From Pseudogemmobacter lacusdianii (GTDB taxonomy: Bacteria; Pseudomonadota; Alphaproteobacteria; Rhodobacterales; Rhodobacteraceae): DNA of 64,000 nucleotides. Location: contig NZ_JAVDBT010000001.1 in NCBI RefSeq assembly GCF_030848395.1, positions 62,001 to 126,000 of the forward strand, in the 5' to 3' direction. Both the position numbers and the translations under genes were made by a program. A model generated the notes under the pieces. It made no database searches, was not told the origin of the DNA, and saw nothing but the letters and a program-made list of their open reading frames with translations. Below, piece after piece: positions 7,059 through 47,604 of this stretch. The first letter of the stretch is position 1; every line of letters starts with the position of its first letter.

Positions 7059-7064
7059 AGGCGG

Positions 7065-7217: not shown

Positions 7218-7313
7218 CGACGCTGTGCCTAAGGGCAAGCTCGGGGTTGACTTGGGCGGCGGGGCGGAGTGTATCGGCGCGATGGAATTTTTGCCCTCGG
7301 AAGGGGATGTATG

Positions 7314-9559: not shown

Positions 9560-9657
9560 AATTGGCGCTATCATTGCGCGGAACTGGCCTTGTCGGCGGC
9601 CTTGTGGGGCATCGCGCTGCGGCTTAGCCTTGCGCGACAGGGCAGGAGGATGCGGCG

Positions 9658-10374: not shown

Positions 10375-10462
10375 TCCAGCGGCGCGGCCTTGCGCCCGCA
10401 AGCTTTTGAGCGCCTGCGGCGCAGGGCCTCTGGCGGGGAAATTTACGTTCTGTCAGAGCGGT

Positions 10463-10515
10463 TTTCATCTGTCCTTAAATATCCTCGGGGGGTCTGGGGG
10501 GCGAAGCGCCCCCAG
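10463..10515 (+). repeat. Dispersed palindromic intergenic repeat, copy R3
   Basis: TTTCATCTG, AAATATCCTC, GGGGGGT and then the hairpin CTGGGGGGC-GAA-GCGCCCCCAG with one bulged G. It is on the same strand as the preceding acetyltransferase gene and about 90 bp after its stop. Confidence 0.8.
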
Positions 10516-10599
10516 CCTTGGGAAATTCTGGTGTGGGGTCTGGCGAAGCGGGTGCGGCGGGCCTAGGTTAGCGCCAGTGCAGCTTTTGCCGGAGTTTAT

Positions 10600-11879: not shown

Positions 11880-11896
11880 AGCGCAAAACTCTTGGC

Positions 11897-11927
11897 AAAA
11901 AAATGGGCCCCGCGCGAGGGGCCCATT
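11897..11927 (-). terminator. Rho-independent terminator of the mce operon
   Basis: On the minus strand AATGGGCCCC (11927-11918) pairs with GGGGCCCATT (11911-11902) around a 6-nt loop and is followed by a run of seven T. It closes mce-DUF1467. Confidence 0.9.
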
Positions 11928-11941
11928 GGGATTGGCGGGTC

Positions 11942-12223
11942 TTAGGACCGCTTGTGAATGTCGAGCCGGTCAAAAATGTCGATGTCGCGCAGGCTGATCC
12001 AGCCCGACATGATGACGCCCACGACCACCAGCCATGCAACAATCGTGATCAGAGTGGCGATCTTGACGCTGCGGCCCACATCCTCACGCGCGGGGGCGCC
12101 CGGAGGCGTGCCGGGCACGACGTGACCCTCTTCCGCTTGGGTTCTCGTGCGGATTTGCAGCACCAGATAGAAGATCAGGAACCACAGAACCGCGAAGACG
12201 ACGATGGCGCCGGTGATGGTCAT
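11942..12223 (-). CDS. DUF1467 family membrane protein
   Basis: The 93-residue protein has two membrane helices: ITGAIVVFAVLWFLIFYLVL at the N-terminus and about residues 60-80 (ATLITIVAWLVVVGVIMSG). Between them is the family signature RTRTQAEEGHVVPGTPPGAP, close to the RTQ.E.G.VVPGTP block of DUF1467. The start codon overlaps the mce stop by 4 nt (ATGA), so the two are cotranslated. This pairing with methylmalonyl-CoA epimerase is common in alphaproteobacteria, as I remember, but no role for DUF1467 is known. Confidence 0.9.
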   Translation of the reverse strand: MTITGAIVVFAVLWFLIFYLVLQIRTRTQAEEGHVVPGTPPGAPAREDVGRSVKIATLITIVAWLVVVGVIMSGWISLRDIDIFDRLDIHKRS

Positions 12224-12624
12224 GCTTGCTCCAATTCGACAAGGCAACCGTTGAAATCTTTGGGATGCAGGAACAGCACCGGCTTGCCATGTGCCCCGAT
12301 CTTCGGCTCATCCGAGCCCAAGATCCGCGCACCTTGTGCCTTAAGATGGTCGCGCGCGGCCAGAATGTCATCGACCTCATAGCAGATGTGATGAATGCCG
12401 CCCGAGGGGTTTTTCGCCAAGAACCCCGCGATGGGCGAGTTCTCCCCCAAAGGGTAGAGCAGTTCGATCTTGGTGTTTGGCAAAGTGATGAAGACCACGG
12501 TCACGCCGTGATCGGGCTCATCTTGCGGCGCGCCGACATCGGCCCCCAAAGTGTCGCGGTATTGCGCGATCGCGGCGGCAAGGTCGGGCACGGCGATGGC
12601 CACATGGTTCAGGCGTCCGATCAT
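12220..12624 (-). CDS. mce: Methylmalonyl-CoA epimerase
   Basis: The 134-residue glyoxalase-fold enzyme interconverts (S)- and (R)-methylmalonyl-CoA in the propionyl-CoA route and the ethylmalonyl-CoA pathway. The N-terminal LNHVAIAVPDL contains the first metal His, GGIHHICYEVDD the second, and the C-terminal VELEQA the metal Glu. The start at 12624 has AGGAG upstream; an in-frame upstream start would add an unconserved leader. meaB, which protects methylmalonyl-CoA mutase, is at 30195, but the mutase itself is not in the window. Confidence 0.95.
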   Translation of the reverse strand: MIGRLNHVAIAVPDLAAAIAQYRDTLGADVGAPQDEPDHGVTVVFITLPNTKIELLYPLGENSPIAGFLAKNPSGGIHHICYEVDDILAARDHLKAQGARILGSDEPKIGAHGKPVLFLHPKDFNGCLVELEQA

Positions 12625-12707
12625 GACGGCTCCTTTCAGGGCGTTTGGCGCGGTTATGCTTGGGCTTTGGGCGCGTCGCAAGGGGCCAGCGCGTCGCAGG
12701 GGCGTTG

Positions 12708-12722
12708 TTAATCTTACGTTTA
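12708..12722. promoter_or_regulatory. Near-consensus CtrA box (one mismatch)
   Basis: TTAA-N7-TTTA differs by one base from the CtrA full site TTAA-N7-TTAA. It lies 50 bp upstream of the response-regulator gene. A weak match taken alone. Confidence 0.3.
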
Positions 12723-12771
12723 GATCTTTGGCGCTAGAGTGGCATTCTTGATGCTAGGAGGGAGAGCTGCG

Positions 12772-13497
12772 ATGCCGCTGAACCTGCCCACGATTGCTCC
12801 GCAGCCCTTTGTGTTGGCGCCCCCCGTGCCGGGATTGGCCTTTGACCGGCTGCCCTTGCAGGGGATCACGCTTTTGGCGGTGGAAGACAGCCGCTTCGCC
12901 TCGGAAGCTTTGCGTCTTTTGAGCCAGCGGTCGGGGGCGCGGTTGCGACGGGCGGAAACTTTGGAACATGCGCAGGCGCATTTGCGGGTTTACCGGCCGG
13001 ATGCGGTCTTGGTGGATCTGGGCCTGCCCGATGGCCGGGGGGAAGATCTGATCGGCGCTATGGCCTCTGAGAGGGAGCGGCCGGCGCTTTTGGCGATGAG
13101 CGGCGACCCGATGGGCGAGGCATTGGCGCTGGCCGCCGGGGCGGATGGGTTTTTGGAAAAGCCGATTGCTGGCTTGGCGGCCTTTCAACGCGCGATACTG
13201 GCGTTGCTGCCGGACCGCTGCAGCGTGCCTTTGCAGGAAGGCGAAGTGACGGTCGATCGCGCGGCGCTGCATGATGATTTGCAGCGCGCGGCCATCGCGA
13301 TGGGCGCCGGGCCTGATGCGAAAGAGCGGCGCTATCTTGCCGGGTTCTTGTCCGGACTGGCGCAGCAGACAAAAGATGCGGATCTGTCGGCGGCAAGCCA
13401 TGCCTTACACCGTTCGGCCGAAGGAGTGTTGGGGCTGGTGCGGATGCTTGACGACCGGCTGGCACAAAGCGCGCCATTTCGCCGACATGACGGATGA
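12772..13497 (+). CDS. Response regulator receiver protein with novel-looking C-terminal half
   Basis: The 241-residue product has a receiver domain at about residues 30-145. It has the acidic pair in LLAVEDSRF, the phospho-acceptor Asp in AVLVDLGLPDG, MSGDP at the switch position and the conserved Lys in FLEKP. The C-terminal ~95 residues are helical (DDLQRAAIAMGAG, then YLAGFLSGLAQQ and SHALHRSAEGVLGLVRMLDDRL). They match no output domain I can name. The His in HALHRSAEG invites comparison with HPt bundles, but this is speculative. AGGAGGGAG at 12756-12764 fixes the start. No histidine kinase gene is adjacent. Confidence 0.75.
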   Translation: MPLNLPTIAPQPFVLAPPVPGLAFDRLPLQGITLLAVEDSRFASEALRLLSQRSGARLRRAETLEHAQAHLRVYRPDAVLVDLGLPDGRGEDLIGAMASERERPALLAMSGDPMGEALALAAGADGFLEKPIAGLAAFQRAILALLPDRCSVPLQEGEVTVDRAALHDDLQRAAIAMGAGPDAKERRYLAGFLSGLAQQTKDADLSAASHALHRSAEGVLGLVRMLDDRLAQSAPFRRHDG

Positions 13498-13529
13498 AAG
13501 GGGCGTTCCGGGTGGCAGGGCCTAAGGCG

Positions 13530-13790
13530 TTAATCCAGTTGGAAAACCTTGTCGCGTGAGGTGGCCCCCCGGATCAAGGTCAGCCGAGTTTTGGCCACCC
13601 CTAAAGCGCGGGCCAGAAGCGCTTGGGCCGCGGCGGTGGCGCGGCCATCCTCGGCCACCTCCGTTACAGAGATGCGAATGGGATCGCCCGTGGTGAGCCC
13701 GGCTTGCCGCGCATTGGGCGTGACCCGGATGGCGATGGTCGCCTGCGGCTGGGCGAGGGCGGTCAGATCGGGAAGGGAAGGGCGGGCCAT
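13530..13790 (-). CDS. DUF167 (YggU) family protein
   Basis: The small alpha/beta protein of 86 residues belongs to the UPF0235/DUF167 family (E. coli YggU). The core is ATIAIRVTPNARQAG, then GDPIRISVTEVAEDGRATAAAQALLARALGV and a final strand RLTLIRGATSRDKVF, the family's 'V...PA..G.AN..L...LA...G..K......G..SR.K' pattern with Arg/Thr in place of KAN. The function is unknown. An upstream in-frame ATG at 13820 would give 96 residues; neither start has a strong ribosome-binding site. Confidence 0.85.
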   Translation of the reverse strand: MARPSLPDLTALAQPQATIAIRVTPNARQAGLTTGDPIRISVTEVAEDGRATAAAQALLARALGVAKTRLTLIRGATSRDKVFQLD

Positions 13791-13850
13791 AAGCTCTTTT
13801 TGACCTTGGCTTTGGGCCATGTCAAACCTTGTGCCAAAGGGAGAGACATG

Positions 13851-14954
13851 ATGACGACCGCCTTTTACTGGGACGAGCGTTGCTTTTGGCACGGGGGCGG
13901 CAATTACGCGCTGACCCTGCCAGTGGGCGGCTTTGTTCAGCCGATGAACGCAGGCCTGCCCGAAAGCCCTGAAACCAAGCGGCGGCTGAAAAACCTTGCC
14001 GAAGTGTCAGGGCTTTGGGCGGAGATGCGGACAGGTTCGGCGCCGGGGGCGCGTTGGGAGGAATTGGCGCGTGTCCACCCTGAGAGCTATCTGACCCGGT
14101 TCAAATCTGCTTCAGATGCGGGGGGCGGCGAGCTGGGTCTGCGCACGCCTTTCAGTCCCGGAGGGTTTGAGATCGCCGCCCTTTCGGCCGGGCTGGCGGT
14201 TGAGGCCTTGCGGGCGGTGTTGAAAGGCGAGGTCGCCAATGCCTATGCCTTGTCGCGGCCTCCGGGACATCACTGTCTGCCCGATTGGCCGAATGGCTTT
14301 TGCCTGATGGCCAATATCGCCATCGCGATTGAGACCGCCCGCGCCGAAGGGCGCGCGGCACGGGTCGCGGTGGTCGATTGGGATGTCCATCATGGCAATG
14401 GCACCGAAGCGATTTTCCTGAACAACCCCGAGGTGCTGACGATCAGCCTGCACCAAGAGGCCAATTATCCTTTGGACACGGGCCAAGCGGATGTGCGTGG
14501 CGAGGGAGCTGCAAAAGGCAGCAATATCAATGTGCCGCTGCCGCCGGGGCTGGGACATAAGGGCTATATCGCCGCGATGGAGCGCATCGTTCTGCCAGCT
14601 TTGCACCGGTTCCAACCGGATGTGATCGTGGTTGCCTGCGGCTATGATGCCTCGGCCTTCGACCCGCTGGGGCGGATGCTGGCCACGACCGAGACGTTTC
14701 GGCAGATGACCGCGCAAGTGAAGGCGGCGGCGCAAGAGCTGTGCGCCGGGCGCTTGGTCTTGGTGCATGAAGGCGGCTATTCGGAGGTGCATGTCCCATT
14801 CTGCGGCCATGCGGTCTTGGAAGAGCTGACCGGCAGCGCGATCCGCGCGCCCGATCCGATGGCTCGCACCTTGGAGGCGCGGCAACCCAACGCGCGATTC
14901 GACGCTTTTGCCGAAGCTTGGATCGACGAACTCGCACTTTACTTCGACCGTTAG
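13851..14954 (+). CDS. Class II histone deacetylase-like amidohydrolase
   Basis: The 367-residue zinc hydrolase of the HDAC/acetylpolyamine amidohydrolase superfamily has SRPPGHHCLPDWPNGFC, which holds the catalytic HH pair. DWDVHHGNGTEAIF supplies zinc ligands (Asp178, His180), CGYDASAFDPLGRM has the third ligand Asp, and HEGGYSEVHVPFCG is the C-terminal active-site loop. Bacterial members deacetylate polyamines, acetoin-related targets or other N-acetyl amides; the substrate here is unknown. The start at 13851 (or 13848) follows AAGGGAGAG. It is transcribed away from the DUF167 gene. Confidence 0.92.
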   Translation: MTTAFYWDERCFWHGGGNYALTLPVGGFVQPMNAGLPESPETKRRLKNLAEVSGLWAEMRTGSAPGARWEELARVHPESYLTRFKSASDAGGGELGLRTPFSPGGFEIAALSAGLAVEALRAVLKGEVANAYALSRPPGHHCLPDWPNGFCLMANIAIAIETARAEGRAARVAVVDWDVHHGNGTEAIFLNNPEVLTISLHQEANYPLDTGQADVRGEGAAKGSNINVPLPPGLGHKGYIAAMERIVLPALHRFQPDVIVVACGYDASAFDPLGRMLATTETFRQMTAQVKAAAQELCAGRLVLVHEGGYSEVHVPFCGHAVLEELTGSAIRAPDPMARTLEARQPNARFDAFAEAWIDELALYFDR

Positions 14955-15035
14955 CCAAGGAGCCGGCTTCGCCCCCATCGAGGGGGCAAAGTCGGCGCTG
15001 CCGCGGAAGGGAGGCGCGAAGGCGCCTCCATGCCC

Positions 15036-15084
15036 CTTTCAGAATAAAAATATCCTCGGGGGTGTGGGGGTGAAACCCCCACCG
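15036..15084 (+). repeat. Dispersed palindromic intergenic repeat, copy R4
   Basis: CTTTCAGAAT, AAAAATATCCTC, GGGGGTGT and then the perfect hairpin GTGGGGGT-GAA-ACCCCCAC (15064-15082). It lies between the HDAC-like gene and rimO, on the strand of both. Confidence 0.8.
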
Positions 15085-15201
15085 GCACCCTCAGCCAGGC
15101 TGTGCAACATTTGCCAAGACCAAAGAACGCGGCGGTAGCCGCACAATTGGATCACGTCATCGCCCTTCCTGCGCGGGCGCGCATGGTTTATAGCACCGCC
15201 C

Positions 15202-16563
15202 ATGTCGCAAAATCCGCCCATCATTCGCCCCGACCTTGCCCGTGCCCATGTCCCTGCCGATCAGCGGCGCGAGGGCCAGCCGACGATTGGCATGGTCAGT
15301 CTTGGCTGCCCGAAAGCCTTGGTCGATTCCGAGCGGATCCTGACCCGGCTCCGCGCTGAAGGCTATGCGATCAGCCCCGATTACAAGGGTGCCGATGCGG
15401 TGATCGTGAACACCTGCGGCTTCCTCGATTCCGCCCGCGCCGAGAGCCTTGAGGCGATTGGCGAGGCTTTGAATGAAAATGGCCGGGTTATTGTCACCGG
15501 CTGTTTGGGCGCTGAGCCCGAATATATCACCGGCGCGCATCCCAAAGTGATGGCGGTGACCGGTCCGCATCAATATGAATCCGTGCTTGATGCGGTGCAT
15601 TTGGCGGTGCCGCCGTCGCCCGATCCCTTCATTGATCTTTTGCCCGCTTCGGGTGTTCGCCTGACGCCGCGGCATTTCAGCTATCTGAAAATCTCGGAAG
15701 GCTGTGATCATAAATGCAAATTCTGCATCATCCCCGATATGCGCGGCCGGCTGCAGTCGCGCCCGGCGAAAGCGGTGCTGCGGGAAGCGGAAAAGCTGGT
15801 CGAAGCGGGCGTGAAAGAGCTGCTCATCATCAGCCAAGACACCTCGGCTTACGGCACCGATTGGAAGGGGCGCGAGGAGAAATTCCCGATCCTGAGCCTT
15901 GCGCGTGACCTTGGCAGCCTTGGCGCTTGGGTTCGGATGCATTACGTCTATCCCTATCCGCATGTGCGCGAGCTGATCCCCGCGATGGCCGAGGGGCTGA
16001 TCCTGCCCTATCTCGACATCCCCTTCCAACATGCGCATCAGGATGTCTTGAAGCGGATGGCGCGGCCCGCGGCCTCGGCTCGGACTTTGGATGAGATTGC
16101 GGCTTGGCGTCGCGATTGCCCGGAAATCGTGCTGCGCTCGACCTTCATCGTCGGCTATCCCGGTGAAACGGAAGAAGAATTCCAGACCCTTCTCGATTGG
16201 ATGGATGAGGCGCAGCTCGAGCGTGTCGGCGCCTTCCGCTATGAGAATGTGAAGGGCGCGCGCTCGAACGACCTGCCGGATCATGTCCCGGAAGAGATGA
16301 AGGAAGAGCGTTACGCGCGCTTCATGGAGAAGGCGCAAGCGATCTCGGAAGCGAAATTGGCGGCAAAAGTCGGCCAGCGGCTTGAGGTGATCGTGGATGA
16401 GGTGGACGCCGAAGGCGCTACTTGCCGCACCAAAGCCGATGCACCGGAAATCGATGGCAATTTGTTCATCGATGAGGGTTTTGAGGGGCTGAAGCCCGGC
16501 GATATCGTCACCGTTGAGGTCGATGAGGCCGGGGAATATGACCTTTGGGGCAGCCGGGTTTAA
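15202..16563 (+). CDS. rimO: Ribosomal protein S12 methylthiotransferase
   Basis: RimO is a radical-SAM enzyme with two 4Fe-4S clusters that adds a methylthio group to the conserved Asp of ribosomal protein S12. The 453 residues start with an MTTase domain: [17 protein letters not shown] has the first cluster Cys, VNTCGF the second and VTGCLGAEP the third. The radical-SAM CxxxCxxC in [14 protein letters not shown] binds SAM, and a C-terminal TRAM domain follows ([11 protein letters not shown]). RimO rather than MiaB is favoured by CPKALVDSE. Confidence 0.96.
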
Positions 16564-16720
16564 ATCTAAAATCCGTTGACCTTCGCCCCATGCGGGCGCT
16601 TTATTTAAAGTTGTAAGCCTTGCTCGCGACGCGCTTGGGTTGATTTTGCCCAAGCGCGCGCTTGATTTTGCATCCGGTTCATTTTGGCATTTTGCCGACA
16701 TCATAACTTTGGAGCGAAAT

Positions 16721-17095
16721 ATGAATGTATCTTCGGCATTTCTGAAAATTGCGGCGCTTTATTTGCTCGTGGGCATGATGCTGGGCATCTATATGGGCGG
16801 CTCGGGCGACCATTCTTTGGTCTCGGTCCATGCTCATATTAACCTTTTGGGCTTCACGCTGATGGTGGTCTTTGGGCTTTTGTACCGGTTTATTCCGGGA
16901 CTGGCAGAGGGCTGGATGGGCAAAACGCATTTCTGGCTGCACCAATTGGGGGCGCTGGTGTTGTTGATTGCGCTTTATTTGATGATGTCGGGCCGGTTGC
17001 CAGCCAGCACCGTCGGGCCCGTGCTGCCTTTGGCCGAAGGCGCGCTGATCATCGGCACGGCGATTTTCGCGGTTAACCTTTGGCGTCGGGTTTAG
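16721..17095 (+). CDS. Small heme-copper-oxidase subunit I-like membrane protein
   Basis: The 124-residue protein has four predicted membrane helices: about residues 8-26, 36-58, 72-92 and 100-120. The second helix includes HAHINLLGFTLMVVFGLLYRFIP, which resembles a helix of cytochrome oxidase subunit I/NnrS-type proteins and has two His that could hold heme or metal. I recall short proteins of this kind annotated as cytochrome oxidase subunit I in alphaproteobacteria. It is far too short to be an oxidase. GGAG at 16711-16714 precedes the start. An FNR box for another gene is 0.8 kb away. Confidence 0.7.
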   Translation: MNVSSAFLKIAALYLLVGMMLGIYMGGSGDHSLVSVHAHINLLGFTLMVVFGLLYRFIPGLAEGWMGKTHFWLHQLGALVLLIALYLMMSGRLPASTVGPVLPLAEGALIIGTAIFAVNLWRRV

Positions 17096-38123: not shown

Positions 38124-39215
38124 TTAAGGTTGAGCAGTGCTGCCGCAAGAGCCGCGGATGATCAATTCGGGGTGCAGGGTTACCGTCTCGATGGGTTGGC
38201 CGGGGTTTTGCATCCGCGCAAGGATGAGTTGAACCGCGCGACGACCGATTTCGGCACCATGCATTTGCACGGTGGTCAGGCCGGGCAGCACCTCGGCGCC
38301 TTGGGGGATGCCGTCGATTCCAACGATGCAGATGTCACGGCCCGGTTCTTTGCCGATCGCGCGCAAACTGTGCATGGCGCTGATGGCCACGTTGTCATTG
38401 TGGCAAACCGCGGCGGTGGGCGGGTCTTCGCGCGACATCATGCGGGCGACGAGGCCGGCGGTGGTGTCTCGGTCTGGCTTGCCGGCGAAATCCACGGCGG
38501 TCTCAAGCGGTATTGCGGCTTCGGTCAGTGCCAGATGATAGCCTTCCAAGCGTTCGCGCCGCGCTTGGCCTTCTGCCTCGCCGCCGAGATAGGCGATCTT
38601 GCGATGGCCGAGTGACAATAGGTGCCGGGTGGCCAATCGGGCGGCCTCGCGGTTGTCGGGGCCGACGAAATTGGTTTGTGGATCGCCGGGGTTGCGCAAG
38701 ATCACGCAGACCGGCGCGCCATCTGCTGTCAAATCGCGGAAGAACTTCTTTCGGGTGGAGGCGACAGGGAAAATCACCAGCCCACCAATGCCAAATTCGC
38801 GCAAAGAACGGCACACGCGGTCCTGCTCGTCGATCTCATCCTTGGTGTCGACCAAGAAGAACATCACGTCGGTGCCCTCAAGCGCTTGCTGCACGCCCGA
38901 GGTGACTTCGGCAAAGAAGGGGTTGCGGATGTCGTTGATCACCAGACCGATCAACTGGCTTTTCTGTTGGCGCAGATTGGCGGCGTTGCGGTTGTAGGTG
39001 TAGCCGAGTTTGCGGATCACCTCATGCACCCGCGCCACCGTCTCGGCCGAGATTCGTCCAGATTTGCGCAGCACCAGAGACACCGTCGAGGTGGAGACCT
39101 GCGCTTCACGCGCAATATCGACGATGGTCACCTTTTGCGAGGTTCTGGCTTTGGTCATCAAGCGCTCACTTAACCGAATATTGGCCTTTGGTTTACCATA
39201 GCCGGGTTTTGACAT
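38124..39215 (-). CDS. LacI-family transcriptional regulator
   Basis: The 363-residue repressor has a LacI helix-turn-helix (TIVDIAREAQVSTSTVSLVL, about residues 31-50) with a hinge ending YNRNAANLRQQ. The periplasmic-binding-protein-like effector domain has LIGLVINDIRNPFFAEVTSGV, LLSLGHRKIAYLGG and AAVCHNDNVAISAM, and ends VTLHPELIIRGSCGS. An inner ATG at 39158 (MTKARTSQKV) is an alternative start that would still keep the whole HTH. It is transcribed away from the CoA-transferase operon. A near-perfect LacI-type palindrome (central CG) is in the shared gap, and two further copies lie before the TRAP and SDR genes, so it is the likely local regulator. The effector is probably a pathway intermediate or sugar-acid. 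Confidence 0.93.
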   Translation of the reverse strand: MSKPGYGKPKANIRLSERLMTKARTSQKVTIVDIAREAQVSTSTVSLVLRKSGRISAETVARVHEVIRKLGYTYNRNAANLRQQKSQLIGLVINDIRNPFFAEVTSGVQQALEGTDVMFFLVDTKDEIDEQDRVCRSLREFGIGGLVIFPVASTRKKFFRDLTADGAPVCVILRNPGDPQTNFVGPDNREAARLATRHLLSLGHRKIAYLGGEAEGQARRERLEGYHLALTEAAIPLETAVDFAGKPDRDTTAGLVARMMSREDPPTAAVCHNDNVAISAMHSLRAIGKEPGRDICIVGIDGIPQGAEVLPGLTTVQMHGAEIGRRAVQLILARMQNPGQPIETVTLHPELIIRGSCGSTAQP

Positions 39216-39406
39216 GCGGGATAGGCGCTCTGCCTTATTCAGTAAATCGTTATTGCAGAGTTACGTTGCGTGTAGCTCGGTTATCGGCGGTCTCATCTTG
39301 TCTAACCCTTCGTGCCACTTGTTCAAAACTGTGAAGTTTTAAGCATCTGTCATTCAAGAGCTGCCGCTGTGCGCCTCTGCGGGCCACGTTGACGCTAGGG
39401 GGCGTG

Positions 39407-39426
39407 TTGATATAACGTTATACCAA
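39407..39426. promoter_or_regulatory. Predicted LacI operator O1
   Basis: TTGATATAACGTTATACCAA is a 20-bp palindrome with a single mismatch pair and a perfect TATAACGTTATA core. The central CG is usual for LacI-family operators. It is 55 bp before the CoA-transferase start and about 190 bp from the regulator gene. Confidence 0.75.
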
Positions 39427-39480
39427 ACTGAGCGGCTTTCCCGAAGGCGGAGGTGGGGCCGCAAGCCTAGGGAGGGTAGA

Positions 39481-41010
39481 TTGGTCAAAATCGTTACAAA
39501 AGAGGAATTGGTGGCGATCCTTGCTGCGATGCCCGAGCGCCGCACGGTCGGCAGCACCGGTGCAGGCGGTGGCTTGTTGGAGCCGGACGCAGTCCTTGCC
39601 TGCTTTGAAGAGGCCTTTGTCACCCACGGCAGTCCCAAGGATATGACTTTGGTGCATGCTTTGGGCTTTGGCGATAAGGATCGACGCGGGGTGAACCGCT
39701 TCGCCCATCATGGCATGGTGCGGCGGGTGATCGGCGGGCATTGGGTCTGGTCGCCGAAACTTTTGTCGATGTCGCAGAAGAATGAGATTGAAGCGTACTG
39801 CCTGCCGGGCGGCGTTTTGATGCATCTGTTCCGCGAGATCGGTGCCGGGCGGCCGGGGCTTTTCACGCATGTCGGCCTTGGCACCTTTGCCGATCCGCGC
39901 CAGCAGGGTGGGCGCTGCAACACAGCGACCACCGAAGAAATCGTCGAGCTGATGCAGATCGATGGCAAAGATGTGCTGCGCTACAAGCCCTTTGCGGTGG
40001 ATATCGGCGTGGTGCGCGGCTCGGTTGCGGATGCTTCGGGCAATGTGTCGGCACGAGATGAGCCCGCCGATCTCGACAGCTATTCGGTGGCGATGGCCGC
40101 ACGCAACTCGGGCGGTATCGTGATTGCGCAGGTGCGTGAGCTGGTCGCCGACGGCGATATTCGCCCGCGCGAGGTCACCATTCCGGGCAATTTGATCGAT
40201 TATATCCTTGTGGTGCCGGATCAGGCGCAAACCTATCGCGGCGCTTACAATCTGGCGCTGGCGGGTCTTGAGCATGGCAAGGTTGAAACCTCGTCCGGCA
40301 AGGAAGATGCCGCGCGGCGCATCGTGGTCTCGCGGGCGGCGGAAGAGCTGGTGCCGGGATCGACGCTGAACTTTGGCTTTGGCATGTCGGCTGGTGTGGC
40401 CGAGAAGATCGTCGCCGAGGGACGGCAGAAGGATTTCTGGTTCACTATCGAGCAGGGCATCCATAACGGCGATTTGCTGACCGGCGATATGTTTGGCATC
40501 GCGGCCAATCCGGCGGCGATCCTGTCTTCGCCCGAGCAGTTCGATCTTTACTCGGGCGGCGGGCTCGACATGACCTTCCTTGGGTTGGCCGAGATGGACG
40601 GGCATGGCAATGTGAACGTGTCGCATTTCAACGGCCAGATCTCAGGGCCGGGTGGTTTTGTCGACATCACCCAAAAGGCCAAAGCGGTGGTCTTCTGTGG
40701 CAGCTTCGACACCAAGGGTGCGCGGAGCCATGTGGAAAATGGCAAGCTGGTCATTGACGCGCAGGGGCAGGTGCAAAAGCTGGTCGCGGATGTGGCGGGC
40801 ATCACCTTCTCGGGCGCGCAGGCCAAGGCCGAGGGCAAAAGCGTGCTTTATGTGACCGAGCGCGCGGTCTTCCGGCTGACGCCCGAGGGCGTGGAGCTGA
40901 TCGAATATGCGCCGGGACTGGACCTGCAAATAGACGTGCTTGATCATCTGGGTTTCACCCCCATCCTGCGCAATCCGCGCCTGATGGATGCCCGTCATTT
41001 CATCGCCTGA
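39481..41010 (+). CDS. Family I CoA-transferase (YdiF/acetate CoA-transferase-like)
   Basis: The 509-residue fused alpha/beta CoA-transferase probably moves CoA from acetyl-CoA or succinyl-CoA to a carboxylate. The alpha half has GSTGAGGGLLEPDAVL, then SMSQKNEIEAYCLPGGVLMHL and GLGTFADPRQQGG, as in YdiF. The beta half has SRAAEELVPGSTLNFGFGMS and FWFTIEQGIHNGDLL, where Glu324 is the expected CoA-thioester residue. It then has LDMTFLGLAEMDGHGNVNVS. The start is a TTG with GGAGGG at 39470-39475; no upstream in-frame ATG exists. It opens an operon with DUF993 and MaoC genes under operator O1. In short-chain acid degradation such an enzyme activates the free acid, or takes CoA off a cleaved product. 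Confidence 0.92.
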   Translation: MVKIVTKEELVAILAAMPERRTVGSTGAGGGLLEPDAVLACFEEAFVTHGSPKDMTLVHALGFGDKDRRGVNRFAHHGMVRRVIGGHWVWSPKLLSMSQKNEIEAYCLPGGVLMHLFREIGAGRPGLFTHVGLGTFADPRQQGGRCNTATTEEIVELMQIDGKDVLRYKPFAVDIGVVRGSVADASGNVSARDEPADLDSYSVAMAARNSGGIVIAQVRELVADGDIRPREVTIPGNLIDYILVVPDQAQTYRGAYNLALAGLEHGKVETSSGKEDAARRIVVSRAAEELVPGSTLNFGFGMSAGVAEKIVAEGRQKDFWFTIEQGIHNGDLLTGDMFGIAANPAAILSSPEQFDLYSGGGLDMTFLGLAEMDGHGNVNVSHFNGQISGPGGFVDITQKAKAVVFCGSFDTKGARSHVENGKLVIDAQGQVQKLVADVAGITFSGAQAKAEGKSVLYVTERAVFRLTPEGVELIEYAPGLDLQIDVLDHLGFTPILRNPRLMDARHFIA

Positions 41011-41034
41011 CCGCCCCAACCTTTCGGAGATACC

Positions 41035-42201
41035 ATGAACATCATTCTTCCGCAGGCTGATGGCAGCCTTGCGCCTTTCACCCTGTCCGGTGCGGCGCCA
41101 TTTGCGGCGCCAGTGAATAAAAGCTGGAACCGCATCGCCTATTCGGCGGCGCATTTGACGATTAACCCTTTGGCCGGCAACGATCCTTGGATCACCACTG
41201 CAGTGGATTGGGAGACTACTTTGGCCTTCCGTCACCGGCTTTGGTCGCTGGGTCTGGGCGTAGCCGAGGCGATGGACACTGCGCAGCGCGGCATGGGCGT
41301 GGATTGGGCGACCTCGCTTGAGCTGATCCAGCGCGCCTCGGCCGAGGCGCGGGCTTTCGGCCCCGGCGCTTTGATCGCCAGCGGGGCAGGGACGGATCAT
41401 CTGGATCTGTCCCGTGAGCATACGATTGATGAGATCATCGCTGCCTATGAGATGCAGTGCGAGGCGGTCGAGGCCGCTGGCTCTCGCGTGATCTTGATGG
41501 CGAGCCGGGCGCTGAACCGTGCCGCCAAAACGCCCGAGGATTATGCGCGGGTTTACGGCCGCGTACTCTCGGGCCTGCGTCAGCCGGCGATCCTGCATTG
41601 GCTGGGCGAGATGTTTGACCCGGCGCTGGAAGGCTATTGGGGCGGCGCGGATCATTGGCAGTCGATGGAGCATTGCCTTGCGATGATGCGCGACAATGCC
41701 GCCAAGATCGAAGGCATCAAGGTTTCGCTTCTCTCGGAGGAGAAAGAGGTCGCGATGCGGCGGCAGCTGCCGGAAGGCGTGTCGATGTATACCGGCGATG
41801 ACTTCAACTATCCCTCGCTGATCCAAGGCGACGGCAGCCATTCCTCGCATGCGCTTTTGGGGATCTTCGACCCGATCGCCCCGGCGGCGGCGGCGGCTTT
41901 GGAGAAGCTGACCAATGGCGATGCGGAAGGCTTCCGGGCGATCATGGATCCGACCGTGCCTTTGTCGCGGTTGATGTTCGCCGCGCCGACGCGGTTTTAC
42001 AAAACCGGCGTGGTGTTCTTGGCTTGGCTGAATGGTAACCAGAAGCATTTCACCATGGCGGGCGGGCAAGAGAGCGCGCGCTCGACCCTGCATCTGGCCG
42101 AGCTTTTCCGTCTTGCCGATGCGGCGGGGCTTTTGGAAAAGCCCGAGCTAGCTTTGGCGCGGATGAAAGCGCTGATGCTGACCCGTGGGGTTGAGGCTTA
42201 A
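41035..42201 (+). CDS. DUF993 family protein (DapA-like TIM barrel, predicted aldolase/lyase)
   Basis: The 388-residue product matches DUF993, which is related to dihydrodipicolinate-synthase-type barrels. Recognisable parts are SWNRIAYSAAHLTINPLA, DWETTLAFRHRLWSLGLGVAEAMDTAQRG and the segment GAGTDHLDL. HTIDEIIAAYEMQCEAVEAAG is followed by RQPAILHWLGEMFDPALEGYW and VSMYTGDDFNYPSLI. No member's reaction is known to me. The barrel relation and acid-type neighbours point to a carbon-carbon lyase or aldolase; the Schiff-base Lys of DapA cannot be placed with certainty (the best candidate is in KIEGIKVSLL). The gene begins 24 bp after the CoA-transferase and ends 1 bp before the MaoC gene. Confidence 0.85.
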   Translation: MNIILPQADGSLAPFTLSGAAPFAAPVNKSWNRIAYSAAHLTINPLAGNDPWITTAVDWETTLAFRHRLWSLGLGVAEAMDTAQRGMGVDWATSLELIQRASAEARAFGPGALIASGAGTDHLDLSREHTIDEIIAAYEMQCEAVEAAGSRVILMASRALNRAAKTPEDYARVYGRVLSGLRQPAILHWLGEMFDPALEGYWGGADHWQSMEHCLAMMRDNAAKIEGIKVSLLSEEKEVAMRRQLPEGVSMYTGDDFNYPSLIQGDGSHSSHALLGIFDPIAPAAAAALEKLTNGDAEGFRAIMDPTVPLSRLMFAAPTRFYKTGVVFLAWLNGNQKHFTMAGGQESARSTLHLAELFRLADAAGLLEKPELALARMKALMLTRGVEA

Positions 42202-42202
42202 A

Positions 42203-42637
42203 TTGGCGGATTTCCACGTTCAGCCCGGCCAGACTTGGCATTTTCGCAAGACCGTCTCGGAATCGGATGTCTATCTTTTCGCGGGGATCACCGGGGATCT
42301 GTCGCCCAATCACGTCGATGAGGCTGCGATGCGGCAAACGCCTTATGGCGGTCGCATCGCGCATGGGGCGCTGATTGTTGGCTATATGTCGGCTTGCTCG
42401 ACAATGGCTTGCGCCGATGCGCGCGGGGCAGGGGAGACGCCGGTCTCTTTGGGCTATGATTCCGTGCGGTTTTTGGCGGGGGTGCCGATCGGCACCACCA
42501 TCGCCATCAGCTATCAGATTGCCTCGATTGACGAAGCTGCCCGCCGCTCGCAAGCCGATGTGCGGGTCGAGGATGCCGAGACGGGCAAGCTTTTGGCGGT
42601 GGCCAAGCATATCCTGAAATGGGTGCCCAACGCCTGA
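42203..42637 (+). CDS. MaoC-like enoyl-CoA hydratase
   Basis: The 144-residue hot-dog-fold protein has TVSESDVYLFAGITGDLSPNHVDE, the MaoC hydratase-2 motif with catalytic Asp and His in GDLSPNHVD, then GGRIAHGALIVGYMSA and VSLGYDSVRFLAGVPIGTTI. It likely adds water to an enoyl-CoA to give an (R)-3-hydroxyacyl-CoA. The TTG at 42203 is used because GAGG at 42193-42196 precedes it and the DUF993 stop ends at 42201. A GTG at 42185 is possible. It is the third gene of the operon, so a CoA thioester made by the CoA-transferase is the expected substrate. Confidence 0.88.
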   Translation: MADFHVQPGQTWHFRKTVSESDVYLFAGITGDLSPNHVDEAAMRQTPYGGRIAHGALIVGYMSACSTMACADARGAGETPVSLGYDSVRFLAGVPIGTTIAISYQIASIDEAARRSQADVRVEDAETGKLLAVAKHILKWVPNA

Positions 42638-42661
42638 CGCCCAAAAGCATCGCTAAATACA

Positions 42662-42694
42662 AAAACACCCGCTCTGGCCCAGAGCGGGTGTTTT
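42662..42694. terminator. Bidirectional terminator
   Basis: AAAACACCCGCTCT (42662-42675) pairs perfectly with AGAGCGGGTGTTTT (42681-42694) around a 5-nt loop. It separates the CoA-transferase operon from the convergent TRAP operon. Confidence 0.93.
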
Positions 42695-42765
42695 CATCTG
42701 GGCGATAGGGCAGGGCCAAAACCGATCAGGAGGAAAACGCCAATCCTGACCCTGCCACCTCGCGG

Positions 42766-44070
42766 TTACGGACCCGCGTCGGGACCGACCAGATTGGGAA
42801 GCCAGAGATAGACCGAAGGGAAGATGATCACCGAGACCAGCACCAAGAAGAGCGGCACCAGCATGATCAACGTATCCTTCAGCGCATCGCGCATCTTCGT
42901 GTCCGAGGCCGCGCAAGCGATCAGCAGGCACAACCCGTAAGGCGGCGTCACCAAGCCAAAGGCCAGCGAGACAATACCGATCAGCGCGTAATGCATCGGA
43001 TCCATGCCTGCGGCCACGGTCAGGGGCTGCAGAATGGCGCCGACGATCACGATGGCCGGGATCGCATCAAGGAAAGCGCCGACGATCAGGAAGACGAAGG
43101 CGATGAAGAAGCCGGTCGCGATCAGCCCCATCTCCCATTCCACCACATGCGACAGCAATGCGGTGGGGATCTTGTAATAGGCCAAAAGCCAGCCAAAGAC
43201 CGAAGCCGTGCCAAGGCAGAAGAGCGAGATCGCCGAGAACTTACCGGTCTCAAGGAAGGCGCGGCCAAGGCTGCGCAGGTCCATCGCGCGGTAAAGCACC
43301 ACGGCCAAGAAGATCGCATAGACGCTGGCCACAGCCGCCGCTTCGGTTGCGGTGAACCAGCCAAAGATCTTGCCGCCAGCGATGATGAAGGGCAGGCCCA
43401 TCGCCGGGATTGCCAAGGCGCCGGTGCGCAGGAGCTCTTTGAACGTCGCGCGTTCGTAACGCGGATAATTCCGCATTTTGGCATAGATATGCACCGTGAC
43501 CATCATCGCCAGCGCCAGCATAATGCCGGGAAGAATGCCGCCGATGTAAAGCTGGCCAACCGAGATCGACAAAGTGCCGGCCCAGATCACCATGATGATC
43601 GAGGGCGGAATGACCGCGCTCAGCACCGAGGAAACCGCGGTATTGGCGACCGAGAAGTTCTTGTCGTAACCCTCTTTCACCATCGCGGGGATGAAGATTT
43701 TGCTCTGACTTGCCGCATCGGCGGTGGACGAGCCCGACACGCCTGCAAAGAGCACCGAGAGCACAACGTTCATCTGCGCCAAAGAGCCGGGCATATGCCC
43801 CACCATCGAGCGCGAGAAGCTCAGCATCTTATCGGTGATGGTGCCCGCATTCATCACGTTGGCGGCCAAAAGGAAGAAGGGCACGGCCAGCAAGAGGAAC
43901 GAGTTGTAGGAGTTGTACATCTGCTCAACCAAGATGAAGAGCGAGACACGGGGGTCAAACAGCAACGGCGGCAGCGAGGCGATGCCCAGCGCAAAGGCCA
44001 CCGGCACGCGCAGCACGAGCATCAGGATGAAGGTGCCGAAAATCAGCGCGGCGACATATTCAATGGCCAT
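42766..44070 (-). CDS. dctM: TRAP transporter large permease DctM
   Basis: The 434-residue membrane protein has about 12 helices. The TRAP DctM pattern begins IEYVAALIFGTFILMLVLRVPVAFALGIASLPPLL, then ILVEQMYNSYNSFLLLAVPFFLLAANVMNAG and FAGVSGSSTADAASQSKIFIPAM. A DAIPAIVIVGAILQPL segment occurs in the last third. Together with DctQ and DctP it forms a sodium-driven uptake system for organic acids. It starts 1 bp beyond the DctQ stop and ends the operon. Confidence 0.95.
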   Translation of the reverse strand: MAIEYVAALIFGTFILMLVLRVPVAFALGIASLPPLLFDPRVSLFILVEQMYNSYNSFLLLAVPFFLLAANVMNAGTITDKMLSFSRSMVGHMPGSLAQMNVVLSVLFAGVSGSSTADAASQSKIFIPAMVKEGYDKNFSVANTAVSSVLSAVIPPSIIMVIWAGTLSISVGQLYIGGILPGIMLALAMMVTVHIYAKMRNYPRYERATFKELLRTGALAIPAMGLPFIIAGGKIFGWFTATEAAAVASVYAIFLAVVLYRAMDLRSLGRAFLETGKFSAISLFCLGTASVFGWLLAYYKIPTALLSHVVEWEMGLIATGFFIAFVFLIVGAFLDAIPAIVIVGAILQPLTVAAGMDPMHYALIGIVSLAFGLVTPPYGLCLLIACAASDTKMRDALKDTLIMLVPLFLVLVSVIIFPSVYLWLPNLVGPDAGP

Positions 44071-44071
44071 A

Positions 44072-44578
44072 TCAGTCTCCGGCCGTAGGCGCGGTAAGCT
44101 CTTGGCCGCGCGGGTATTTCGAGATCGCCGTGACGATGGCTTCGGCCGTGAAGATCAGCCAGCCAATCGCTGCGAAGGGGAAGATGCCGTAAACCCAGAC
44201 CAGATTGAGGTCGGTGATTTCCGAGCTGAGGATCATACCGAATTCGGCGAACTCGAGGCTGCCGATCAGGAAGACGATGCCAAAGCCAAAGATCGCCAGA
44301 CGCACCGCCAGAATGCCGCAAAGCTCTCCCAGACGGGTCTTGGCCTTGGGCAGAAGGTCAATGTCGAAATGGGTGTTTTCGCGCACGGCCACCGCGCTGC
44401 CGATCATGATCAGCCAGATCAGGCAAAAGCGCGACATCTCTTCGGTCCACATATAGTGCGGCACGATTTTGCCAAAGCGGGCAAGGACTTGCAGGCCAAC
44501 GGGGATGAGAAGGAAGATGCTCAATGCGGCCACGGCCAAGAGCAAAAGCTTGTAATATAGGTCCAGCACGAAGCGCAT
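44072..44578 (-). CDS. dctQ: TRAP transporter small permease DctQ
   Basis: The 168-residue protein has four membrane helices. Between helices 2 and 3 is the DctQ signature WTEEMSRFCLIWLIMIGSAVAVRENTHFDIDLLP, here in the form MWTEEMSRFCLIWLIMIG followed by VRENTHFDIDL. DctQ stabilises the DctM-DctP interaction. It lies in the middle of the dctP-dctQ-dctM operon. Confidence 0.95.
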   Translation of the reverse strand: MRFVLDLYYKLLLLAVAALSIFLLIPVGLQVLARFGKIVPHYMWTEEMSRFCLIWLIMIGSAVAVRENTHFDIDLLPKAKTRLGELCGILAVRLAIFGFGIVFLIGSLEFAEFGMILSSEITDLNLVWVYGIFPFAAIGWLIFTAEAIVTAISKYPRGQELTAPTAGD

Positions 44579-44639
44579 GGGGATACTCCTTTGCCATCAT
44601 GGCCCCAAAAGCGGGGCCATGACAGTTTGCGTCACCAGA

Positions 44640-45641
44640 TCACTCGATCGCGCGGACAGCTTTGATGATGTCGGCAGCGCCCAGCTCTTCGGCATAGGCA
44701 TCAACCGCCGGCACCACCAGCTCATGCATCTTTTCCAGATCGGTGAAGGTGTGGATGCGCAGCTTGTTTTCGGCCGCCAGTTGCTCAAGCGCGCCCACGT
44801 CTTCGGCGGTCTCGGTCTCGCGCCAGAAGGCGGCGGCATCCTCACCGGCTTTCAAGATCGCAGCTTGCAGATCTTCCGGCAGACGCTCAAGCGTGGCCGA
44901 GGAGAACAAGAGCGGGCGCACAGTCACGATATGGCTGGTGCGGATCACTTCCGGAGCCACTTCGTAGAAACGCATCTGAGCGTTGGTCGAAGCTTCGTTC
45001 TCCAGCGCGTCGATCACGCCGCTTTGGATCGCGTTGTAGATCTCATTATAGGCGATCACGCTCGGCTCAATGCCAATGGCGCCGAAAGCGGTGGCATGGA
45101 TCGGGGTGCCTTGCACGCGCATACGCAGGCCGGCCAGCTCTTCAAGATTGGTCGCGGGCTTGTTGGACAGGATGTTGCGCTCAGCGCCGCCACCCAGCCC
45201 CAGCACTTTCACGCGGCCTTTGGTCTCGATCTCTTCGATGACCGGGCCGAAGGCGTTTTGCTCAATGGCTTTTTTCCAATGCGCGGTGTCGCGGAAAAGG
45301 AAGGGGGTGTCGAGTACGCCAGCCGATTTCACCACTTGGGTCAGGTGCGCCGGGGCGACGACTGCGAAGTCGACCGAGGTGCCGCGCGCCATCAGCGTGA
45401 AGTAGCTGGCTTCATTGCCGAGCTCGCCGTTCTCGTGCATCACGAATTCAACCGGCTTGCCGTAATACTCGGTCACCTTTTCGGTGAACTTGGCCATTGC
45501 GCGGTTGAAGATGTGGTCGCTGGTATAGGCGCTGGCGCCGTGGAGGACGATTGCCTCCTCGGCCGAAGCTGCGGTGCCAAAGCCCGCGGCGGTGCCCATA
45601 AGTGTGACGGCCGCAAAAGCGGCGCGCAGGGTCTTTTTCAT
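44640..45641 (-). CDS. dctP: TRAP transporter substrate-binding protein DctP
   Basis: The 333-residue periplasmic protein has a signal peptide ending in GTAASA (about residue 27). The mature part has the DctP fold: NRAMAKFTEKVTEYYGKPVEFV, then SVDFAVVAPAHLTQVVKSAGVLDTPFLF, LAGLRMRVQGTPIHATAFGAIGIEP and EIYNAIQSGVIDALENEASTN. Arg in LRMRV is the usual carboxylate-binding Arg, so the ligand is probably an organic or sugar acid. GGAGG precedes the ATG at 45641. Operator O2 lies about 95 bp upstream, linking import to the LacI regulon. Confidence 0.94.
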   Translation of the reverse strand: MKKTLRAAFAAVTLMGTAAGFGTAASAEEAIVLHGASAYTSDHIFNRAMAKFTEKVTEYYGKPVEFVMHENGELGNEASYFTLMARGTSVDFAVVAPAHLTQVVKSAGVLDTPFLFRDTAHWKKAIEQNAFGPVIEEIETKGRVKVLGLGGGAERNILSNKPATNLEELAGLRMRVQGTPIHATAFGAIGIEPSVIAYNEIYNAIQSGVIDALENEASTNAQMRFYEVAPEVIRTSHIVTVRPLLFSSATLERLPEDLQAAILKAGEDAAAFWRETETAEDVGALEQLAAENKLRIHTFTDLEKMHELVVPAVDAYAEELGAADIIKAVRAIE

Positions 45642-45736
45642 GTGATCCTCCACAGTGACCCGGGGCCTTTGTCCGACCCCGAGATGGTCGCCCCCTCCTC
45701 CTCAGGCAGAGAGCCAATCATGGGGGAACCGTACGG

Positions 45737-45756
45737 TTAGTAGAACGATATATCAA
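45737..45756. promoter_or_regulatory. Predicted LacI operator O2
   Basis: TTAGTAGAACGATATATCAA matches O1, read in reverse complement, at 17 of 20 positions and keeps the AACG-centred core. It lies about 95 bp upstream of the dctP start. Confidence 0.65.
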
Positions 45757-45932
45757 CAGGGAAATGGACAGCGCTGCACAGCCAAGAATATGGCTGAGTT
45801 GTTTTATTGCTCAAACATCGCTTTCTATGGGTCGTTGCAGCTCTCTGGCTGACAGGTTCTGCGAATCATCTGACGAAGGAAGCGGCGTGCCCCTGTGTCC
45901 TTCCAAGGTGCCTCTGCGGATCATCCAGAAAA

Positions 45933-45952
45933 TTGGTTGAACGTTTTACCAG
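45933..45952. promoter_or_regulatory. Predicted LacI operator O3
   Basis: TTGGTTGAACGTTTTACCAG matches O1 at 15 of 20 positions and the symmetric consensus at 16, with the central AACGTT intact. It lies 40 bp before the SDR gene. Confidence 0.6.
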
Positions 45953-45991
45953 CTTGCTGCAGGACTATGCGCAATGGTGAGGAGAACGACT

Positions 45992-46780
45992 ATGGACCAA
46001 ACGGACCGGCAAAGCGCGGGCGTCGCATTCGTGACCGGATCGTCACGCGGCATCGGGCGCGGCATCGCCTTGGCTTTGGCCAAGCGCGGCTTTGATGTGG
46101 TGATTCACGGCCGCTCGGATCGCGAAAGCGCCGAGGCCACGGCAAAGGAAGCCGCAGAATTTGGCGTGCGCAGCCATGTGCTGTTGGGCGATGTTGGCGA
46201 TATCGCAGGCCATGCCGCAATGGTGGCCGAGGTTGAGGCGGCGCTGGGCCCGATCAGCTGCTTTGTGAACAACGCGGGCGTGGGCGCTTTGCGCCGCGAG
46301 GACGTGCTTGAAGCGAAAGAGGACAGCTACGACCATTGCATGCTCTTCAATGCCAAAGCGGGGTTCTTCTTCACCCAAGCGGTGGCCAAACGCATGGCGG
46401 TGCAGCCGGCTGAGGGGCGGTTCCGCAGCCTTGTGATGATCTCTTCGGTCTCGGCCCATACCGCCTCGATCAACCGCGGCGAATATTGCGTATCGAAGGC
46501 TGCGGCCGGGATGGTGGCTTCGGTCTTTGCCGCCCGGATGGCCGAGTTTGGCGTCTCGGTCTATGACGTGCGCCCCGGCGTGATCGAGACCGATATGTCG
46601 CGCATGGCTTTGGCCGCCTATCAGCAGCGCATCGACAACGAAAAGCTGACGCTGATCCCGCGCATCGGCCAGCCCGAGGATGTGGGCCGCACCGTGGCCG
46701 CTTTGGCTGCGGGCGATCTGCCCTATGCCACCGGGCAAATCCTGAACCTTGACGGCGGCATGTCCGTCCAAACCCTGTGA
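45992..46780 (+). CDS. SDR-family dehydrogenase (3-ketoacyl-ACP reductase-like)
   Basis: The 262-residue oxidoreductase has a Rossmann motif FVTGSSRGIGRGIALALAKRG at the N-terminus, the NNAGVGA strand and the catalytic SSVSAHTASINRGEYCVSKAA (Ser, then YxxxK). The ending YATGQILNLDGGMSV is typical. RS in HGRSD at the end of beta-2 suggests NADP(H). GAGGAG precedes the ATG at 45992. It forms an operon with the AroE-like gene 8 bp downstream, under operator O3. In this cluster it probably oxidises a hydroxyl group of the imported acid or sugar. Confidence 0.9.
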   Translation: MDQTDRQSAGVAFVTGSSRGIGRGIALALAKRGFDVVIHGRSDRESAEATAKEAAEFGVRSHVLLGDVGDIAGHAAMVAEVEAALGPISCFVNNAGVGALRREDVLEAKEDSYDHCMLFNAKAGFFFTQAVAKRMAVQPAEGRFRSLVMISSVSAHTASINRGEYCVSKAAAGMVASVFAARMAEFGVSVYDVRPGVIETDMSRMALAAYQQRIDNEKLTLIPRIGQPEDVGRTVAALAAGDLPYATGQILNLDGGMSVQTL

Positions 46781-46788
46781 GAACGACC

Positions 46789-47604
46789 ATGGCAGATCCC
46801 AACGCAGCTTTGCTCAGCGTGACCGGCGAGACCCGGCTTTATGTGGTGATCGGTGACCCGATCCGGCAGGTCCGCTCGACCCAGCTTTACAACCGCCTGT
46901 CGGCTGAGCGCGGCCACGATGTGGTTTTTGTGCCTTTGCAGTTCAGCGAGGCGGATTTTGAGACGTCGATCAAAGGCTTGCGGTCGTTCAAGAACCTCGC
47001 GGGCATCATCGCCACCATCCCGCATAAGCCGAAACTGATGCCGGTGATCGATCTGGTTCTGCCGCGCGCCACCGTGGTGGGCGCCGCCAACTCGATCCGG
47101 ATCGAGGCGGATGGCTCTTGGACCGGCGATATCTTCGACGGTGTGGGCTATGTGAACGGGTTGCGCTCGGAAGGCATCGATCCGGCAGGCAAATCGGTGC
47201 TCTTGATCGGGGCAGGCGGCGCGGGGGCGGCTTGCGCGGTCGAACTGGCGCAGGCCGGTGTCGCCAAACTGCGCATTGTGGAGCTGGACAGGAAGAAGCT
47301 GGAATGGCTTTTGTCCTCGCTCCAAGCAGCTTATCCCGGCCTTGATGTGGCACCGGGTGAGGCCGCGCCCGAGGGCTTTGACATCGTCGCCAATGCCACC
47401 CCGGTCGGTATGCGCGAAGAAGATCCTTTCGTGGTCGACCCCGCGCGGCTGAGCCCCAATCAGATCATCTCCGAGATGATCATGAAACCCAATGTCACCC
47501 GCTTCCTTGAGGCGGCGGCGGCGCGGGGCTGTCGGACGCATATTGGCTACCATGCTTTGATGGGCCAAGCGAATGCGACGATGAGCTTCTTCGGGCTGGA
47601 ATAA
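46789..47604 (+). CDS. Shikimate-dehydrogenase-like protein with altered substrate pocket
   Basis: The 271-residue protein has the AroE fold. VIGDPIRQVRSTQLYNRL stands where AroE has GxPIxHSxSPxxHN. IIATIPHKPKL has the catalytic Lys, ANSIRI the substrate Asn and TGDIFDGVGYVNGL the catalytic Asp. The NAD(P) loop LLIGAGGAGAACAVELAQAG and C-terminal GYHALMGQANATMSFF, with the usual Gln, complete it. The first Ser of the shikimate-binding SxS is Val and the Pro is Thr, so shikimate binding is doubtful while the catalytic pair stays. In a LacI/TRAP catabolic operon it is more likely a dehydrogenase for another polyol acid (quinate-like) than a biosynthetic AroE. The symbol aroE is therefore not assigned. 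Confidence 0.85.
   Translation: MADPNAALLSVTGETRLYVVIGDPIRQVRSTQLYNRLSAERGHDVVFVPLQFSEADFETSIKGLRSFKNLAGIIATIPHKPKLMPVIDLVLPRATVVGAANSIRIEADGSWTGDIFDGVGYVNGLRSEGIDPAGKSVLLIGAGGAGAACAVELAQAGVAKLRIVELDRKKLEWLLSSLQAAYPGLDVAPGEAAPEGFDIVANATPVGMREEDPFVVDPARLSPNQIISEMIMKPNVTRFLEAAAARGCRTHIGYHALMGQANATMSFFGLE

Follow-up and report, generated by a model that had tools for sequence, protein, structure and literature searches.

Pseudogemmobacter lacusdianii carries a gene cluster at positions 38124 to 47604 of the stretch analysed here, which is 64 kb of contig NZ_JAVDBT010000001.1 (64,000 nucleotides; the window below, with positions counted from its first letter). A gene for a LacI-family regulator (lacI) is read leftward, and genes for a coenzyme A (CoA)-transferase, a DUF993 protein and a MaoC-like protein are read rightward, out of one shared gap. 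From a second gap the TRAP transporter genes dctP, dctQ and dctM run leftward and the genes of a short-chain dehydrogenase/reductase (SDR) and an AroE/YdiB-like dehydrogenase run rightward. Three similar palindromes, O1 to O3, stand before the transcription units beside lacI. We propose that they are operators through which the LacI protein would control both import and breakdown of an organic acid. The features of the locus are as follows.

39407-39426, strandless: O1, predicted operator, TTGATATAACGTTATACCAA, 54 bases upstream of the CoA-transferase start (TTG 39481)
45737-45756, strandless: O2, predicted operator, TTAGTAGAACGATATATCAA, 95 bases upstream of dctP
45933-45952, strandless: O3, predicted operator, TTGGTTGAACGTTTTACCAG, 39 bases upstream of the SDR start
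39239-39258, strandless: O4, candidate weak operator, TCAGTAAATCGTTATTGCAG, preceding lacI
39389..39394, plus strand: -35-like TTGACG (5/6)
39411..39416, plus strand: -10-like TATAAC (5/6), after a 16-base spacer and inside O1
38124..39158, minus strand: lacI, LacI/GalR-family regulator, MalI-like (PF00356 56 bits, PF13377 108 bits)
39481..41010, plus strand: acyl-CoA:acetate/3-ketoacid CoA-transferase, YdiF-like (PF01144; best PDB match 2ahu, ydiF, 3.6e-117)
41035..42201, plus strand: DUF993 protein (PF06187 584 bits; PDB 4dnh, 'Uncharacterized protein')
42185..42637, plus strand: MaoC-like hydratase/dehydratase (PF01575); the true start may be further in
42766..44070, minus strand: dctM, TRAP large permease (PF06808; TIGR00786 354 bits, cut-off 268)
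44072..44578, minus strand: dctQ, TRAP small permease (PF04290)
44640..45641, minus strand: dctP, TRAP solute-binding protein (PF03480; best PDB match 4nx1/4ovp, 279 bits)
45992..46780, plus strand: SDR oxidoreductase (PF13561; NF009386 311 bits, cut-off 250)
46777..47604, plus strand: AroE/YdiB-like dehydrogenase (PF08501; best PDB match 4k28), scoring under every shikimate dehydrogenase cut-off among the models listed

Direct reading of the sequence confirmed the three palindromes of the original prediction at 39407, 45737 and 45933. Each is a 20-bp even palindrome with CG at its centre, and the self-complementary pairs number 9/10 in O1, 6/10 in O2 and 7/10 in O3. O1 agrees with O2 at 17/20 positions (one of the two reversed) and with O3 at 15/20, and O2 agrees with O3 at 14/20; the first two counts had been given correctly, and only the word 'near-identical' was a little strong. 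When O1 was compared with the whole window, only O2 and O3 exceeded 13/20 (self excluded; next best 13/20), and in 2000 dinucleotide shuffles of the 338-base gap between dctP and the SDR gene the match to O1 was never above 14/20. A matrix built from any two of the sites ranked the third first among all 20-mers of the window, with scores of 27.2, 23.0 and 19.2 and a runner-up of 14.4 or less. A pattern derived from the sites gave six strand matches in the window (three places, both strands), with 0.01 expected. In the P. lacusdianii genome (3.78 Mb) this pattern was found with zero or one mismatch at the O1-O3 places only and with two mismatches at one further place (C45:105687). Up to three mismatches gave 34 strand matches vs 28 for the reversed control pattern; with nothing else at 0-1 mismatch and looser matches close to the control count, a wider regulon was rejected. 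Since the window and genome patterns were built from O1-O3 themselves, the O1-similarity and shuffle comparison and the leave-one-out ranking are the fairer tests. The sites are real, far beyond chance and confined to one cluster, and the operator consensus of the window LacI is probably near TTGGTATAACGTTATACCAA.

Both the LacI helix-turn-helix (HTH) and the periplasmic-binding-protein-like effector domain were recognized above gathering scores in the lacI product. The distances of the sites depend on the likely starts, which were judged by Shine-Dalgarno-like sequence for dctP (GGAGG at ATG 45641, in a frame that extends to GTG 45653) and the SDR gene (AGGAG at ATG 45992, in a frame that extends to 45974); for lacI, comparison with relatives makes ATG 39158 the likelier start of a frame open to 39215. 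With these starts, the earlier statement that the palindromes precede the three transcription units beside lacI holds, at 54, 95 and 39 bases. According to the main text of PMC4052901, more than 75% of LacI-family sites lie 30-140 bases upstream, a range that includes all three distances, and a central CG is found in most regulators. The local regulons described there have an even palindrome with CG centre and few operons, as in the window, and are frequently autoregulated, which the candidate O4 might match. The predicted window regulon is an ordinary kind of control that fits a LacI/GalR-family local regulon. The word TRAP is absent from the main text of PMC4052901, and no regulon with the gene content of the window was seen in the sections used here. 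O1 overlaps the -10 of the promoter-like pair, which was spotted by eye and then checked. The consensus promoter scan returned nothing at O1, O2 or O3; it passes over the pair at O1 because its rule demands T at position 6 of the -10.

The closest known system is MalI of Escherichia coli, which is 34% identical to the window LacI over 268 amino acids and shares the TVSLVL stretch of its HTH. As in the window, malI and malX are a divergent regulator and target with AACGTT-centred palindromes between them. When the matrix of O1-O3 was applied to NC_000913, the two palindromes of the malI-malX gap took the top two places in 8 kb with 22.0 and 16.1 (5.8 for the next in that gap), scores reached by 1 and 57 of 5000 shuffles; these palindromes are presumably the 16-bp sites of MalI. 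Their flanks are GATAAAACGTTTTATC, unlike those of the window. The window LacI was rejected as MalI proper: it reaches 231 bits vs a MalI model cut-off of 310, and there is no divergent malX/malY. The MalI targets are a phosphotransferase system gene and malY, whereas the neighbours of the window lacI are acid-pathway genes (CoA-transferase, DUF993, MaoC, TRAP, SDR and AroE-like genes).

Like sites were also found at other relatives. The closest LacI (43%) is that of genome G532, where a CoA-transferase (66%) is encoded about 4 kb away. The divergent gap of this locus, flanked by a binding-protein gene and an operon of hydratase and lacI (genes named by eye from frames), holds two sites by the window matrix, 21.9 and 17.8, with the next in the 18-kb locus at 9.1; the two scores were reached by 0 and 2 of 5000 shuffles. 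On a Jannaschia plasmid (L168) one site lies ahead of a lacI whose product is 37% identical (22.9, 0/5000 shuffles). The best score at a Photobacterium relative (LacI 40%) was 13.8, reached by 10/300 shuffles. Genome G107 (LacI 41%) has no window-type site; it has a GGAACGTTCC palindrome with a score of 6.4 by the matrix of the rhizobial sites described next.

A second group of relatives differs in its operators. LacI matches were found in 161 plasmid records; 10 of the 20 listed were examined, and 8 of these are rhizobial or Microvirga loci, with LacI at 39-42%, CoA-transferase at 38-40% and, where present, DUF993 at 54-57%. The three genes occur together in 6/8 (L206, L209-L213), with duf993 divergent, while L205 and L208 are without a duf993 match. 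Apart from lacI and the CoA-transferase, the shared gene content includes Gfo/Idh, enoyl-CoA hydratase and aldehyde dehydrogenase, and sugar ATP-binding cassette (ABC) genes lie nearby (annotated in five of the eight records, the other three being unannotated) where the window has TRAP genes. Fourteen CG-centred palindromes in the rhizobial gaps passed the filter, nine of them with the exact AACGTT centre, and in 7/8 loci the lacI-proximal palindrome lies directly after TTGAC. The rhizobial operators are predicted to be near ATTTGGAACGTTCCAAAT, with a core like that of the window sites and different flanks. With the window matrix, one of the 14 scored 14.2 and the other 13 no more than 3.3; with the rhizobial matrix, O1, O2 and O3 scored only -7.0, 1.2 and -8.6.

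P. lacusdianii itself has a cluster of this second kind about 100 kb from the window cluster (L217, G000:C1:210000-229500; 2602-17094). By tblastn it encodes a LacI (36%, C1:226092), a CoA-transferase (37%) and an SDR (45%), and frames named by eye are Gfo/Idh-like, aldehyde-dehydrogenase-like, ABC and GMC-like; no DUF993 match at 1e-60 was found in it. Before its first frame stand two tandem rhizobial-type GGAACGGTCC sites, 23 bases apart (L217 2537-2579), which score 27.9 and 22.5 with the rhizobial matrix (next 4.6). The recognition helix reads VS-KS-TVSLVL in the eight rhizobial and Microvirga loci, and the paralogue likewise has Lys-Ser as its variable pair; the corresponding letters are VS-TS for the window LacI, VS-RS for G532 and VS-VS for MalI. 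Because both the helix pair and the sites differ between the window LacI and its paralogue, the two related regulators appear to keep separate operators in one cell.

The candidate O4 would supply lacI with an operator of its own, as in the E. coli malI-malX gap and most rhizobial gaps, which hold two sites. With 14.2 it is the best non-training 20-mer of the window; when the 191 bases of the gap on the lacI side were shuffled, 5/5000 shuffles reached this score. As background, the 1.53 Mb of other loci (L001-L080) contain 4 places with a score of at least 14, the highest being 19.0.

Several observations count against control of the cluster by its LacI through these sites. At O2 and O3, neither the consensus scan nor inspection by eye found a convincing -35/-10 pair. 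O4 has just 3/10 palindromic pairs and, being so poorly palindromic, is called a candidate only; this weak candidate makes the earlier claim that no fourth site precedes lacI doubtful. A uniform test scored the 400 bases ahead of each lacI hit in 43 rows, several of which recur in overlapping loci; besides the window copies, only L168, L192 and L204 gave 0/300 shuffles. L192 holds a 29% relative with another helix, so its site is either chance or unrelated. The helix at L168 (Jannaschia) also differs (IP-TVSQ), so the site match there is not explained by the helix. G532 fails the uniform test because its lacI is apparently second in an operon, and passes only on the operon gap, the bounds of which assume a hydratase start at L170:7355 in a frame open to 7277. 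Seven same-genus pairs of duf993 and lacI (L165, L186-L191) have no site by the window or the rhizobial matrix, although at L186-L191 the stretches cover about 300 bases or less before duf993 and an operator further upstream would be missed. Across L185-L191, 7/13 same-genus genomes (own included) have DUF993 at 53-54% and lacI (35-38%) directly after it, with no operator in the stretches covered. A Shinella cluster (L167) with a CoA-transferase at 65% was likewise without a site by either matrix. The palindrome was expected to recur at orthologous clusters; this has come out in favour at G532, E. coli malI-malX and the Jannaschia plasmid, against at the same-genus pairs and Shinella, and in between at the rhizobia, which have a like core and other flanks.

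The best explanation, with a probability of roughly 0.88, is that the LacI-family repressor controls import and breakdown of an organic acid via O1-O3, perhaps also O4. A dimer of the protein would bind the CG-centred palindromes before the CoA-transferase/DUF993/MaoC operon (O1), dctPQM (O2) and the SDR/AroE-like operon (O3), with perhaps weaker binding at O4 before its own gene. Bound to O1, the dimer would sit on the -10 element and so prevent transcription. Binding of the imported acid, or of a product made early in its breakdown, to the periplasmic-binding-protein-like domain would release the repressor, and import and breakdown would begin together. A single LacI-type regulator for import and breakdown, as in the original prediction, is the best-supported reading, given sites beyond chance, LacI domains and like sites at relatives.

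Repression is the most likely mode of this control, judging from the letters at O1, which cover a -10-like hexamer. Use of the sites by the LacI for activation or mixed control is unlikely. It would agree with the fact that only O1 clearly overlaps a promoter-like -10 while O2 lies 95 bases before dctP, and PMC4052901 refers to a LacI-family protein for which both modes of action are predicted; yet in 7/8 rhizobial loci the palindrome next to lacI comes just after TTGAC, and in the sections of PMC5543585 on MalI the protein binds its 16-bp site at the malI and malXY promoters and represses both. Still less probable is that O1-O3 belong to another regulator, for example the paralogous LacI C1:226092 or one outside the cluster. 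The genome does hold four matches to the window LacI at 1e-20, itself included, and one LacI paralogue sits in a similar CoA-transferase cluster. That paralogue, however, differs from the window LacI in the recognition helix (Lys-Ser vs Thr-Ser) and has rhizobial-type sites in its cluster, and O1-O3 score low with the rhizobial matrix and fit the malI-malX and G532 sites instead. We regard it as very improbable that the palindromes are functionless AT-rich sequences that match by chance. The sites were first spotted by eye, two of them share one gap, and O2 has the fewest pairs; against this stand the leave-one-out rank of 1 for all three, the absence of any gap shuffle above 14/20, and the matching sites at relatives.

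The comparison of the two clusters bears on the recognition code of the LacI family. Camas et al. (PMC2978694) linked AA-15/AA-16 to NT-5/NT-4 and an arginine at AA-20 to G at NT-6 before restricting the analysis to TVSR proteins, as the part of the paper on the code describes. Likewise here, flanks vary with the AA-15/AA-16 pair; that code came from the TVSR subgroup, whereas the window LacI and the leucine-bearing relatives counted here have TVSL and T at NT-6. With leucine at AA-20, T stands at NT-6 in all half-sites counted in the window (6/6), G532 (4/4), malI-malX (4/4), the paralogous cluster (4/4) and the rhizobia (28/28). It is not peculiar to leucine, since the Jannaschia site, with glutamine at AA-20, also has T (2/2). 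A tentative extension, which we hold to be somewhat short of even odds, is that two TVSL-type LacI paralogues each serve their own CoA-transferase/dehydrogenase cluster. Their operators would be split via Thr-Ser vs Lys-Ser (AACGTT with A/T-rich flanks vs GGAACGGTCC), the DUF993 protein would act in an undescribed CoA-dependent pathway for a sugar-acid-like compound, and the LacI code would be extended beyond TVSR. As one genome holds both related clusters and their operators differ, it is a natural setting in which to test how LacI proteins avoid each other's targets.

What is less ordinary, and uncharted, is the DUF993/CoA-transferase pathway. DUF993 has a solved structure and no function assigned in the libraries searched, and the protein of the window is the single match at 1e-60 in its own genome. 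In the library searched, no paper with the word DUF993 was found and, for the gene cluster, no paper combining all four cluster terms. For the substrate, we take PDB 4nx1/4ovp, the best matches of DctP, to be structures with hexuronates bound, which the library searches did not confirm; as it rests on these ligands, a hexuronate-like acid is a lead only. Through the circuit an uncharted catabolic pathway becomes accessible to testing. The inducer of the LacI should name the pathway substrate or an early intermediate.

Close orthologues of the window LacI are rare in the samples searched. Itself included, matches were found in 4/394 family genomes at 1e-60 and in 2/244 order genomes at 1e-70; at 1e-72 it was the only one in 260 class genomes. 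Within the genus (13 genomes, its own among them) no other LacI match exceeded 39%. The CoA-transferase was matched at 1e-170 in 2/270 class genomes, itself included; the other is G746, with a CoA-transferase at 52% and no LacI match within the 16 kb taken. At 1e-100 there were matches in 60/394 family genomes, the best other at 51%. Megablast of plasmids with the cluster gave no match. The loci of the best DUF993 relatives (best 80 of at least 593) were rejected as orthologous clusters: the window CoA-transferase had no match there, and the window LacI a single one (28%), some 8 kb from duf993.

Some further features were observed in passing. On the Shinella plasmid (L167 10965-17533) the gene of the 65% CoA-transferase has as neighbours the gene of a different LacI (34%) and one annotated as hypothetical whose product is AroE-like (37%), a hint that another regulator may govern the same pathway there. 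In G366 two window-like palindromes (L164 10312-10331 and 10441-10460; 21.7 and 13.9) are some 2 kb away from the gene of a 37% LacI rather than directly before it. A MalI-like palindrome in G057, GCGATAAAACGTTTAAACAA (L163 7240-7259, score 16.7), follows the gene of a 36% LacI, some 300 bases beyond its end. In the window, a terminator-like stem-loop occupies 45779-45796, in the divergent gap between O2 and O3; its tail is T-rich on the plus strand, and 0.2 was expected in shuffles.

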